Positions 20,009 through 44,863 of a DNA stretch of 64,000 nt are shown piece after piece. The notes beneath the pieces are model-generated. The model saw only the letters and a list, made by a program, of their open reading frames with translations, ran no database searches and was not told the origin of the DNA. The translations under genes were made by a program, and so were the position numbers. The stretch comes from Cystobacter fuscus. Lineage in GTDB: Bacteria; Myxococcota; Myxococcia; Myxococcales; Myxococcaceae. The stretch spans positions 7,192,001-7,256,000 of the forward strand of contig NZ_CP022098.1 in NCBI RefSeq assembly GCF_002305875.1, read 5' to 3'. Every line of letters starts with the position of its first letter. The first letter of the stretch is position 1.

Positions 20009-20917
20009 GTGTCGGCCATCGAAGTCACCGGGTTGAGGAAGAGGTACCGGCGCCTGTTGCGTCCGCCGGTGGATGCCTTGCGAGGGGTGGATCTGAGCGT
20101 GCCGGAGGGCAGTGCCTTCGGGCTCATTGGCCCCAACGGCGCGGGGAAGACGACCTTCATCAAGAGCCTGCTGGGCATCATCCAACCCACGGATGGAACC
20201 GTGCGCGTGCTGGGAGGCTCGCCCGGGGACGCCCACATCCGCGCGCGCATCGGCTACCTGCCCGAGCGCCTGCACCTGCCCAACTCCTGGAGCGCCCTCG
20301 GCTTCCTGGACATGATGGCCCGCTTCAAGGACCTCGTGCCCGACGCCCGCGCGCACCAGCAACTGCTCGAGCGCGTGGGACTGGCCGCGGCCGCGCGCCA
20401 GCGCATTGGTGAATTCTCCAAGGGCATGCGCCAGCGCCTGGGGCTCGCCTCCGCCCTGCTGGGTCCCCCCGATCTGCTCATCCTCGACGAGCCCACGGAT
20501 GGAATCGATCCCATGGGGCGGGTGGAGGTGCGGCGCATCCTCCAGGAGGAGGTGCGGCGCGGGGCCACGCTCTTCCTCAACTCGCACCTGCTGGCGGAGA
20601 CCGAGCGGGTGTGTGATCGCGTGGCCATCCTCTCGGGGGGCCAGGTGGTGCGGCAGGGCCGGCTGGAGGAGCTGCTGCGCGGCGGGGTGCGCTGGACGGT
20701 GCGCTTCGCCCCGGGCGTGGACGCGGGCGCGCTGGCCGCCGCGGGCTTCCAGCCGGGGGACACCGAGGGCCTCTACCACCTGGAGGCACCGGGGCTGCCG
20801 GAGCTCAACGCGGCGCTGGATCGGGCCCGGGCCTCGGGCGCGCTGATGATGGAGCTGCGGCGCGAGGGCCAGGATCTGGAGCAGGTGTTGTTGTCCACCG
20901 TGGGAGTCGCGGCATGA
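20009..20917 (+). CDS. ABC transporter ATP-binding protein
   Basis: 302-aa ATPase of an ABC-2-type exporter (CcmA/NatA/DrrA style). Walker A is GPNGAGKTTF near residue 45, the Q-loop region is GYLPERLHLP, the signature is FSKGMRQRLGL, Walker B is LLILDEPTDGID and the H-loop is LNSHLL. The C-terminal ~70 residues are the DrrA-type accessory domain. GTG start at 20009. Its stop overlaps an ATG (ATGA at 20914) that should begin the permease, but the permease is destroyed a few codons later. The ATPase therefore has no visible membrane partner in the window. Confidence 0.93.
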   Translation: MSAIEVTGLRKRYRRLLRPPVDALRGVDLSVPEGSAFGLIGPNGAGKTTFIKSLLGIIQPTDGTVRVLGGSPGDAHIRARIGYLPERLHLPNSWSALGFLDMMARFKDLVPDARAHQQLLERVGLAAAARQRIGEFSKGMRQRLGLASALLGPPDLLILDEPTDGIDPMGRVEVRRILQEEVRRGATLFLNSHLLAETERVCDRVAILSGGQVVRQGRLEELLRGGVRWTVRFAPGVDAGALAAAGFQPGDTEGLYHLEAPGLPELNAALDRARASGALMMELRREGQDLEQVLLSTVGVAA

Positions 20918-41928: not shown

Positions 41929-41956
41929 CAACTCGCCATGGTGGCGAGTTGAAAGG
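41929..41956 (+). promoter_or_regulatory. Perfect 10-bp inverted repeat just before the lanthipeptide ribosome binding site
   Basis: CAACTCGCCA (41929-41938) and TGGCGAGTTG (41942-41951) are perfectly complementary around a 3-base loop. AAAGG (41952-41956), the ribosome binding site of the precursor gene, begins at the next base. As DNA it is a possible operator for a homodimeric regulator. As RNA it is a stable hairpin right next to the ribosome site. The position suggests control of the operon. Confidence 0.7.
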
Positions 41957-41965
41957 CGGTTGGTC

Positions 41966-42121
41966 TTGAACAACGTCCTCGCATTGCAGAAGCTCCCCGC
42001 GGATACAGGTGGGGAAGCAGTTGGAGGCGACTCGGCGGATGGAGGGCAGGAGGCCACTGCCTCCAACCTCAGCTTGCTTGATTGTGAAGCAAGTTCGAGC
42101 TTGAGTCTCCTCTTGTGTTAG
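41966..42121 (+). CDS. SapB/RamS-like class III lanthipeptide precursor
   Basis: 51-aa precursor starting at TTG 41966, nine bases after AAAGG; no in-frame ATG lies nearer than 41867. It begins MNNVLALQKLP, where VLALQ matches the short hydrophobic LxLQ leader motif recognised by class III synthetases (RamS begins MNLFDLQ). A Gly/Ala/Asp-rich stretch follows. The core from about residue 31 holds two SxxSxxxC motifs: SNLSLLDC (Ser33, Ser36, Cys40) and SSLSLLLC (Ser44, Ser47, Cys51). This is the labionin/lanthionine motif, arranged as in SapB. The core is strongly amphiphilic. The LanKC gene follows 90 bases downstream. Mature ring type and leader cleavage site are not determinable here. Confidence 0.85.
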   Translation: MNNVLALQKLPADTGGEAVGGDSADGGQEATASNLSLLDCEASSSLSLLLC

Positions 42122-42168
42122 TGAGCAGGCGCCGGTCGAGGTGCCGTGCCATCTGTTGACAGGAAATC

Positions 42169-42198
42169 ACCTCCCGAGGGCAGCTTCCTTCGGGAGGT
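42169..42198 (+). promoter_or_regulatory. Hairpin between precursor and synthetase genes
   Basis: ACCTCCCGA (42169-42177) and TCGGGAGGT (42190-42198) form a perfect 9-bp stem with a 12-base loop and no T-tract. It is well placed to act as a partial terminator or RNA-stability element giving more precursor than enzyme. It lies in front of the preferred LanKC start at 42212. Confidence 0.65.
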
Positions 42199-42211
42199 CC
42201 GGGGAGGATGC

Positions 42212-44863
42212 ATGCGCGGCATCGAGCGGCGGGCACGGGAGAACATCCACCTCTTCACGCTTCTGCATCCGGAGCGCTATGAGAGCCTGGATGCCTATCA
42301 ATCGAAGAGCGCCGGGTTCCGGGAACTTCTGGTTCGCCTGCTGCCAGCATCCTGGACGATCGGAAGGAAGTCAGGGATCTGGTGCGAGGCCCAACCCCCC
42401 GAGCCCTCTTTCCCTGACACCGGCTTCAAGATCCATGTGTCCACGGCGCACGATCGCGCCCGGGAACTCCTGACGACGGTCGTTCCCCTGCTCGTCGCCG
42501 AGCGGGTGGCCTTCAAGGTGCTCGTCGACGAGTTCGTGCTCGACTTGAGCAATTCCCACATGTGGGCGCGGGGCGCGAGCGGGAAATTCATCACCCTCTA
42601 TCCCGCGGATGTCGGTCAGCTGAAGCGGCTCCTGGAGCAACTGCACGGCGTCACGAAGGATTTCGTGGGCCCCTATATCCTGTCGGACAAACGGTACAAA
42701 GGCAGCCACGTCCTCTTCTACCGTTACGGTGCGTTCCGGGGCCTGCGGCACCTCAACGCCTACGGAGAGCAGGTGCCCCACCTGCGGATGACCGATGGCC
42801 GCCTGCTTCCGGATCCACGCCCCCCCTTCTTCACCCTGCCCCCGGGCGTGATCGATCCCTTCCCGGATGACGACCAGGGGGCCACCGAGGAGCCCCTCCT
42901 CCATGGCCGCTACAAGGCGCTCTCGGCCATGAGTTCTTCCTCCAAGGGAGGAGTCTATCGGTGCCTCGATCTGACGTCCCGGGCGGAGGTGGTGCTCAAG
43001 GAGGCCCGGCCCCTGGTGAACCGGGGGCGCAAGAATCCCTGCGACGCCGTCGATTGTCTCGAGAACGAGTACCGGATCCTCAAGCGGCTGGAGGCAACGG
43101 GACTGGCTCCCCGCGCGCTCGACTTCTTCCAGGACTGGGAGCACAGCTTCCTCGTCATGGAGCTCGCGCGGGGCAGGAAGCTCAGTGCCCACATCGCCTC
43201 CGGACAACTGTCCCTCCTCGCGTCGCCCACGCCGGGTGTCGACGAGGTGCGGCGCTTCGGGGAGACCTTCCTCGCGGTGTCCAGGAAGCTCATCTCCGCG
43301 CTCCGCACCATCCACTCACAGGGCGTGGTCATCCAGGACATCTCCCCGAAGAACATCCTGTTCGACCTGGAGCGAGATCAGCTCACGTTCATCGACTTCG
43401 AGGCCGCGCTCGACCTCCAGAACCCGGAGCAGGGTCCCGTCATCCGGCTGTTCACACCCGGCTTCGGAGTGGAAAGGCCCGCGGGTTCTGTTCCCACCTT
43501 CCGGGATGATCACCAGGCCTTGAGCCGGGTGCTCGGTGATTTCCTCTACCCACCGACCCCCTTCTTCACGCTCGCCCCCCACCAACGCGAGCCCATGCTC
43601 ACGCACTTCGCCCAGGAGAAGGGCATCCCGGAAGCCTTCGTGCGGCTCATCTTCGGAATCGAGCAGGACTTCCAGCGGGCGGACGAGCTGCTGGCCGAGG
43701 CGGAGCGGAGCTTGGGGGACATCCACTCGGCGCGGCCAGTCACTCCCCGTCGAGATGACGACGCGTTGCGAGAGTCCCTCGAGGGGATCATCCGCTACAT
43801 CGTCGACCAGATCCACACGGGGGAGGACCCTCTGGAGCTGCCCACGGATTACCGCCGGTTCACCACCAATCGCTTGAGTGCCGCCTATGGCGCGTCCGGT
43901 ATCGCGCTCTTCCTCCAACGCGTGGGCAGGCCGCCTCCCGAGGTCTTTCTCGAAGCCCTGCTTCACGAGGCTTCCCAGATCGACAACCAACGCTACGCAC
44001 CCGGTCTCTACATCGGCAGTGCAGGAATCGCGTGGACGCTGCTGGAGCTGGGGTGGAGGAAAGAGGCCGAGGCGCTCCTGGATGTCGCGGCGCGCTCTCC
44101 CCTGCTCTTCGAGAACGCCGATCTCTTCTACGGAGGTGGCGGATTCGGGCTCACGAATCTGTTCTTCTTCGACCGGCTCGGGGATGAGAGGTATCTCCAG
44201 CGGGCGATCCAGGTCTTCGACACGCTGAAGCCAGGCATCCAGTCATCCGCACGAGGGTACTTCTTCGAGAACAACGGAGATGTCTACCATGGCCTGGCGC
44301 ATGGCGCCTCCGGGCTCGCCTGTTTCTGTCTGAAGCTCCATCAGGCGACCGGGCGACAGGAGCACCTCGATGCCGCGATCCGGCTCCTGGACTTCGACCT
44401 GTCGAGTGCCGAGCGGAGCAACGGCCATCCACGGTTCCGCCGCTCCCGGAGGGAGTCGGTGTTCTACCCGTACTGGCACATCGGGAGCGCGGGCATTGGC
44501 TGTGTCGCGCTGCGCTTCTACGACGTGCTCCGGGACGAGCGGTACGCCCGGGAGGCACGGAGCATCGCGTCATCGCTCGCGGGCAACTACTCCGTGTTTC
44601 CCACGAACTTCGCGGGCATGGCGGGCCTGGGGGGATTCTTCGTGGACCTCTATCGGTACACCGGCGAGGAGGTCTGGCGGACGGAGGCCCGGCGGTTCCT
44701 GGAGCGGGTGATGCTGTTCGCGCTCGATCGGCCGGCCGGCCTCGTCTTCCCTGGCGAGGATCTCCTCCGCGTCTCCACGGATTACGGCACGGGGTCCGCG
44801 GGAACCGGCTCGTTCATCCACCGGCTCCTCACGGGCGGCGGCATTCCATACCTGGACTTCTAA
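42212..44863 (+). CDS. lanKC: Class III lanthionine synthetase LanKC (RamC/LabKC-like)
   Basis: 883-aa trifunctional enzyme that dehydrates Ser in the precursor and forms (labi/lan)thionine rings. The N-terminal lyase domain is ~1-225. The kinase domain starts near 230: Lys in VVLKEARP (~260), catalytic loop VIQDISPKNILF (~372), metal-binding FIDFEAALD (~393; DFE instead of DFG, as in other LanKC). The cyclase domain is ~520-883, with AHGASGLACF and YWHIGSAGIGC where class I/II/IV enzymes have zinc ligands. The Cys-Cys-His triad is absent, which assigns class III. Start 42212 follows GGGGAGG and leaves the hairpin untranslated; a GTG at 42146 is also in frame. No export or protease gene is adjacent. 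Confidence 0.92.
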   Translation: MRGIERRARENIHLFTLLHPERYESLDAYQSKSAGFRELLVRLLPASWTIGRKSGIWCEAQPPEPSFPDTGFKIHVSTAHDRARELLTTVVPLLVAERVAFKVLVDEFVLDLSNSHMWARGASGKFITLYPADVGQLKRLLEQLHGVTKDFVGPYILSDKRYKGSHVLFYRYGAFRGLRHLNAYGEQVPHLRMTDGRLLPDPRPPFFTLPPGVIDPFPDDDQGATEEPLLHGRYKALSAMSSSSKGGVYRCLDLTSRAEVVLKEARPLVNRGRKNPCDAVDCLENEYRILKRLEATGLAPRALDFFQDWEHSFLVMELARGRKLSAHIASGQLSLLASPTPGVDEVRRFGETFLAVSRKLISALRTIHSQGVVIQDISPKNILFDLERDQLTFIDFEAALDLQNPEQGPVIRLFTPGFGVERPAGSVPTFRDDHQALSRVLGDFLYPPTPFFTLAPHQREPMLTHFAQEKGIPEAFVRLIFGIEQDFQRADELLAEAERSLGDIHSARPVTPRRDDDALRESLEGIIRYIVDQIHTGEDPLELPTDYRRFTTNRLSAAYGASGIALFLQRVGRPPPEVFLEALLHEASQIDNQRYAPGLYIGSAGIAWTLLELGWRKEAEALLDVAARSPLLFENADLFYGGGGFGLTNLFFFDRLGDERYLQRAIQVFDTLKPGIQSSARGYFFENNGDVYHGLAHGASGLACFCLKLHQATGRQEHLDAAIRLLDFDLSSAERSNGHPRFRRSRRESVFYPYWHIGSAGIGCVALRFYDVLRDERYAREARSIASSLAGNYSVFPTNFAGMAGLGGFFVDLYRYTGEEVWRTEARRFLERVMLFALDRPAGLVFPGEDLLRVSTDYGTGSAGTGSFIHRLLTGGGIPYLDF

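Follow-up and report, generated by a model that had tools for sequence, protein, structure and literature searches.

In this work we describe a pair of genes in the myxobacterium Cystobacter fuscus, located on the forward strand of a stretch of 64,000 nucleotides (contig NZ_CP022098.1, positions 7,192,001 to 7,256,000), which is called the window at its full length and to which all positions below refer. The first gene encodes a peptide of 51 amino acids from a TTG codon, and the second, immediately downstream, encodes a LanKC synthetase. The domains of the synthetase, its match to the class III model, the VLALQ box in the leader of the peptide and the SxxSxxxC motifs in its core together make the identity of a class III lanthipeptide system well supported at the sequence level, just as the first-pass annotation of this DNA had proposed.

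The precursor gene and its synthetase

The small frame translates to LNNVLALQKLPADTGGEAVGGDSADGGQEATASNLSLLDCEASSSLSLLLC, with its stop at 42121. The peptide begins with LNNVLALQ, and its core consists of S33NLSLLDC40 and S44SLSLLLC51; the coordinates, frame, TTG codon and motif positions given in the first-pass annotation all match the sequence. Curated precursor models recognise it: PF19402 (RamS) with 31.0 bits (cut-off 24.3, E 3.5e-7), NF033212 (SapB_AmfS_lanti) with 28.6 bits (cut-off 25) and NF038154 (lanthi_III_a) with 27.3 bits (cut-off 22), while NF038159 (lanthi_III_b) was narrowly missed at 29.8 against a cut-off of 30. When 195 Myxococcota genomes were searched in six frames, RamS passed its cut-off in only three, namely the source genome and two congeners (G091 and G092), there in the orthologous place; matches at E<=1 occurred in 78 of the 195, all below the cut-off except those three. 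None of 14 control genomes gave a match above the cut-off in the same kind of search, and no relative of the precursor was matched among plasmid sequences.

The start codon merits some attention, as a longer frame of 84 amino acids, opening at ATG 41867, overlaps the small one. In both congeners an ATG stands at the position of the TTG, the GAAAGG precedes it, and in-frame stops lie upstream; the TTG start is thus supported, and the 84-amino-acid precursor is ruled out since its frame is not conserved. That such a gene is easily missed in routine annotation, as the first-pass annotation remarked, agrees with a survey in which, as excerpted from PMC7268733, 55% of class III precursors lacked annotation.

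As for the synthetase, the class III model NF038151 scores well above its cut-off of 575, whereas the class IV model stays at 496.6 bits against a cut-off of 650. The most probable start of translation is ATG 42212, preceded by GGGGAGG (42201-42207), to judge from the sequence and from the ATG of both congeners. In the alignment, His, Phe and Ala occupy the three zinc-ligand sites, where two controls have the intact set of Cys, Cys and His, so that the claim of a LanKC without zinc ligands holds. The controls are L004, a LanM from this genome, and L083, an S. clavuligerus enzyme that lacks annotation. The former control (G000:C1:1488344-1492123) is a class II LanM-like enzyme encoded elsewhere in the source genome. 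The gene at 42212-44863 is the sole full-length LanKC match in this genome of 12.35 Mb. Its matches in the Protein Data Bank include 8sao, 8sap and 8sam, all titled class III LanKC; 8sao, which we take to be ThurKC of Bacillus thuringiensis, scores 193 bits.

Table 1. Features of the Cystobacter fuscus locus (positions in the window) and of related loci in Myxococcota.
Feature	Position or locus	Strand	Remarks
Inverted repeat ACTCGCC-ATGGT-GGCGAGT, 5' of ribosome-binding site	41931..41949	+	G091 and G092 share the same arms
Likely Shine-Dalgarno GAAAGG, 9 nt 5' of TTG	41951..41956	+	Sequence; also in both congeners
Gene of the 51-aa precursor peptide, starting with TTG	41966..42121	+	PF19402 and NF033212 above cut-offs; G091 and G092 orthologues with ATG
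Leader recognition box VLALQ, residues 4-8	41975..41989	+	Similar box at all 21 Myxococcota loci with full or split LanKC
Ring A motif Ser33-Ser36-Cys40 (SNLSLLDC)	42062..42085	+	SNISLVDC in G092; SNLSLIGEC in G091, one residue longer
Ring B motif Ser44-Ser47-Cys51 (SSLSLLLC)	42095..42118	+	S[SGA]LSLL[LA]C in 6/8 loci of same LanKC clade
Intergenic stem-loop of 12 bp, lacking a T run	42169..42198	+	Minimum-free-energy fold, three-species comparison
LanKC class III lanthionine synthetase, 883 aa	42212..44863	+	NF038151 743.4 bits; RamC_N, Pkinase, LANC_like
Lyase domain (RamC_N, residues 42-225)	42335..42886	+	GFKIHVS, SGKF, GPYILSDKRYK, FYRYG aligned with relatives
Kinase domain, residues 244-407	42941..43432	+	Lys of VVLKE, Asp/Asn of QDISPKN, Asp of DFE
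Cyclase domain, residues 581-874	43952..44833	+	Zinc-ligand positions His (YWHIG), Phe, Ala (NFAG)
Split LanKC	L043, L045, L046, L051, L052, L053, L054		Genomes G074, G122, G087, G080, G088 (twice), G089
Hybrid-leader precursors	L041:7279-7455; L048:4637-4849; L049 near 5299; L050 near 11071

Conservation in the genus and core types in Myxococcota

Both congeners keep the precursor and LanKC together, between the same GH92 and beta-propeller genes, which bears out the expectation that the SxxSxxxC peptide would be conserved beside orthologous LanKC genes. The six ring residues are intact in all three species, where ring A of G091 reads SxxSxxxxC, while the linker and the positions that separate the rings differ among congeners. 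Ser45 is replaced by Gly in both G091 and G092, and Ser43 by Gly in G092. The cores of G093, the fourth genome of the genus, comprise only one with a single motif and another that is unrelated. As to the age of the locus, the search for an empty site that would mark a recent insertion gave no clean one, because the relatives of the GH92 and propeller genes lie apart in the other genera listed. In-frame stops noted in paralogues of the propeller gene turned out to be the gene end in both paralogues examined.

Beyond the genus, a LanKC protein search at E<=1e-30 matched 19 of the 195 Myxococcota genomes, all of one family. Two of these matches are partial (L022 in G063 and L023 in G105), covering the lyase-kinase part alone at 27-29% identity, and were left out; no precursor was found within their 4-kb loci. 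There remain 21 loci with full or split LanKC in 17 genomes, and the other 178 have no full LanKC at this threshold. A class III leader box followed by a short Cys-bearing tail lies beside LanKC in all 21, either 182-385 bp upstream or about 105-283 bp downstream of the LanKC match, and no second hit appears within 6 kb; this search was not blind, since its pattern was shaped on the first hits. In four of the loci (L037, L038, L048 and L050) the candidate precursor is downstream of LanKC. Among ten relatives' precursors scanned, an NCBIfam class III cut-off was passed by three (L035, L036 and L037), two of which are the congeners.

The arrangement of the core varies considerably among these loci. 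Of the 21 precursors, 2 (source genome and G092) have two strict SxxSxxxC motifs and 11 have at least one, so that the double SxxSxxxC core is confined to the three-species group when G091 with its longer ring is counted. The trio belongs to a clade of eight loci, whose five other members (G093a, G094, two loci of G096, and G097) are orthologues at 50-53% identity with the same type of leader box and a hydrophobic SxxSxxxC ring, yet each has one strict motif, not two. G094 and one G096 locus add an overlapping relaxed motif, and these same two, unlike the Cystobacter pair, carry the precursor downstream of LanKC. Most simply read, these sequences point to a gain of the second ring in the ancestor of the trio, the alternative being its loss elsewhere. 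Cores with two motifs are also present outside the trio: five split-LanKC loci (in G074, G080, G087 and G089 and one of those in G088) have two shorter SxxSxxC motifs.

Split enzymes form a group of their own. In seven loci of six genomes, LanKC is divided at about residue 473-519, so that lyase and kinase share one frame and the cyclase has its own; for L045 and L053 a script search did not locate the cyclase start near the first stop, and G122 also carries a fused relative (L044) of the same tree group. An excerpt of PMC10604976 reports that artificially split ThurKC is functional in trans. Besides these, several precursors have hybrid leaders, where a stretch of the double-glycine type ending in VVGG precedes the class III box. 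A C39-peptidase ATP-binding cassette (ABC) transporter and two HlyD genes adjoin these loci, as seen from the domains at L041 and the same blastp clusters at L048-L050; with such a transporter next door, a cut at GG would yield a core still bearing its class III leader. Outside the phylum, a scan of named genomes confirmed a single locus, which lies in Paenibacillus. Moreover, an annotated LanKC on a plasmid of Streptomyces sp. NBC_01351 (L079) lies inside a daptide-type cluster for a ribosomally synthesized and post-translationally modified peptide, together with a YcaO gene.

Likeness to SapB and the proposed pathway

The first-pass annotation compared the peptide with RamS, the precursor of SapB in Streptomyces. 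The core layout and the family models sustain this likeness, as the precursor exceeds the cut-offs of PF19402 and NF033212 and has two tandem, Leu-rich SxxSxxxC rings; kinship with SapB does not follow from it. The LanKC tree (25 rows, midpoint root, long branches flagged) was computed without RamC, L045, L053, L054 and Amyco_L080, an annotated LanKC that did not align. The trio falls within an eight-row myxobacterial group with 100/100 support, while L082, which lies beside an annotated SapB/AmfS peptide, falls in a separate three-row Streptomyces group, also with 100/100. The fourth Streptomyces row, L083 with its zinc ligands, forms a long branch beside the myxobacterial group with hybrid leaders. 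Moreover, SapB/AmfS loci have a linked ABC transporter pair of the ramAB type and a RamR-type regulator. Neither these nor a protease were found in the 13 frames scanned around the pair, some neighbouring frames lying outside that scan; two ABC genes are present at the SapB/AmfS locus of Streptomyces sp. YIM 121038, and across the whole window an ABC signature accompanied by Walker A occurs just once, at 20630, about 21 kb from the pair. Unlike in SapB/AmfS, a long acidic linker precedes the core. Since the double core is limited to one genus, its nearest five relatives have a single motif, the enzymes group apart, and the frames scanned hold no transporter or RamR, kinship is unsupported, and the likeness looks convergent as far as the sequences go.

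Class III lanthipeptides of myxobacteria are already in print, and the Cystobacter locus is another member. According to the citation in an excerpt of PMC12328550, boletupeptin, a peptide from Melittangium boletus published by Rukthanapitak et al. in 2024, shares the class III type and the myxobacterial origin. Further titles name melittapeptins and, for 2023, a myxobacterial lanthipeptide with reported anti-inflammatory activity. Among the matches listed for lanthipeptide literature on myxobacteria, Cystobacter, Corallococcus and fruiting bodies, the titles and abstract openings do not describe the present locus.

What can be read from the sequence itself (the gene pair, the domains, the catalytic kinase residues, the lost zinc ligands, the conservation, and a ratio of nonsynonymous to synonymous substitution rates, dN/dS, below 1 for whole precursor and LanKC) is very probably a minimal two-gene class III lanthipeptide locus, for which we infer the following chemistry, processing and export. 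The precursor would be translated from TTG, and its leader would dock as a helix on LanKC through VLALQ. LanKC would then phosphorylate Ser33, Ser36, Ser44 and Ser47, eliminate the phosphate, and use Cys40 and Cys51 to close two thioether rings in a zinc-free reaction, as lanthionine or labionin. Subsequently a protease encoded outside the locus would remove the leader, and an unlinked exporter would release a Leu-rich, acidic two-ring peptide of about 19-22 residues, which may act outside the cell via its hydrophobic rings. ThurKC is likewise a lyase-kinase-cyclase enzyme without zinc, and according to an excerpt of PMC10604976 it follows the same order of steps, is contacted by an LELQL leader sequence and relies on a leader protease outside the cluster; it differs in being a Firmicute enzyme with a different core.

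Several points weigh against this reading or part of it. No exporter or protease is among the 13 neighbouring frames scanned; in actinobacterial class III clusters a linked protease is usually lacking, as stated in the excerpt of PMC7268733. Six of the ten relatives' precursors scanned are below the class III cut-offs, and L048 matches none of the models. Ser43, Ser45 and Thr31 could be dehydrated too, and the ring pairing may therefore differ from the one proposed. As for selection, the NG86 estimates of dN/dS among the three species are 0.26-0.32 for LanKC and 0.36-0.61 for the whole precursor, the latter resting on 50-51 codons whose sub-regions are too short to be trusted; for instance, the leader alone gives 2.08 between G091 and G092 from about four changes. 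Furthermore, the synonymous distance from the source genome is 0.37-0.38 in the precursor against 0.15-0.18 in LanKC, about twofold, for which we have no explanation.

Two non-coding elements may regulate the pair. The intergenic stem-loop would be an attenuator or an element of mRNA stability, by which the precursor may be held above the level of the enzyme. The 97-nt intergenic stretch has a z of -2.06, with 7 of 200 shuffles equally stable; the inner 10 pairs are intact in all three species, one of them via a T-A/C-G change, while the pair beyond them fails in G091 and the outermost in both congeners. With three sequences only and such a z, the support is modest. The inverted repeat could be a hairpin in the 5' untranslated region or an operator; the surrounding 76 nt folds with a z of -2.70, and covariation gives no support since the arms are invariant. 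A regulon sharing the repeat was rejected, as the 12.35-Mb genome has one mismatch-free copy and two further copies carrying two mismatches, compared with six found by the reversed control pattern. In a consensus scan neither a sigma-70 promoter nor an intrinsic terminator was found, and the stem-loop is not terminator-like.

Possible functions of the peptide

Regarding what the peptide does, a weapon against bacteria or fungi in predation or competition is a tentative possibility. The pair diverges faster than its neighbours, as identity to the source genome is 74 and 74.5% for the precursor and 92 and 90% for LanKC, against 97% for GH92 and 94% for the propeller, and genes of offence often diverge fast; however, neither an immunity gene nor an exporter was recognised in the frames scanned, and a further LanKC product, noursin, proved to lack antimicrobial activity against a limited set (excerpt of PMC10206099). 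A kin-specific signal, or a surface peptide recognised within the genus, is somewhat more doubtful. The species-variable residues between constant ring residues would suit it, and a durhapeptin variant is active on only 4 of 17 related strains in the excerpt of PMC13380574, yet no receptor or regulator was identified next to the pair, the gene for an extracytoplasmic function sigma factor (49120) and a LysR gene (50701) both lying past the propeller gene.

That the peptide is a surfactant or morphogen like SapB, lowering surface tension or coating cells and thereby helping fruiting bodies or swarms to lift off the surface, seems unlikely, and the label is an analogy, whose specific support is limited to core layout and hydrophobicity. 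With its tandem Leu-rich rings, the two-ring core has a grand average of hydropathy of 0.95, close to the 0.91 of a Streptomyces SapB/AmfS-family core, and durhapeptin activity requires hydrophobic residues according to the same excerpt of PMC13380574. However, hydrophobicity is not specific, because the quite different core of a split-LanKC locus (L052) scores 1.05. A general role in fruiting is disfavoured by the 178 genomes without full LanKC, in a set not sorted by fruiting status; G093 of the same genus lacks the double core, and the transporter pair and RamR-type regulator are absent from the frames scanned. A search with the SapB precursor, as excerpted in PMC9011353, matched formers of aerial hyphae such as Nocardiopsis and Micromonospora. 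The more far-reaching proposal of an independent SapB analogue in a Gram-negative fruiting bacterium, in which the single ring of related genera was doubled within one genus to give a surface-active morphogen served by shared export machinery, is distinctly improbable. Finally, that the small frame arose by chance and LanKC modifies another substrate, as the TTG start and the overlapping 84-amino-acid frame might suggest, can practically be set aside, given the matched precursor models, the start region and ring residues conserved in the congeners, and the lack of any credible second precursor of this kind in the source genome, where no further match falls below E 2 and the second-best RamS match stays below the cut-off at 15.6 bits.

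Altogether, the locus provides a conserved, simple and readily expressed class III system outside Actinobacteria and Firmicutes, the source of most characterised ones, and its two-ring core beside single-ring relatives offers a natural series for probing the effect of the second ring. If the peptide were indeed surface-active in development, two unrelated groups of bacteria with aerial structures would each have come to morphogenesis of the SapB type independently.

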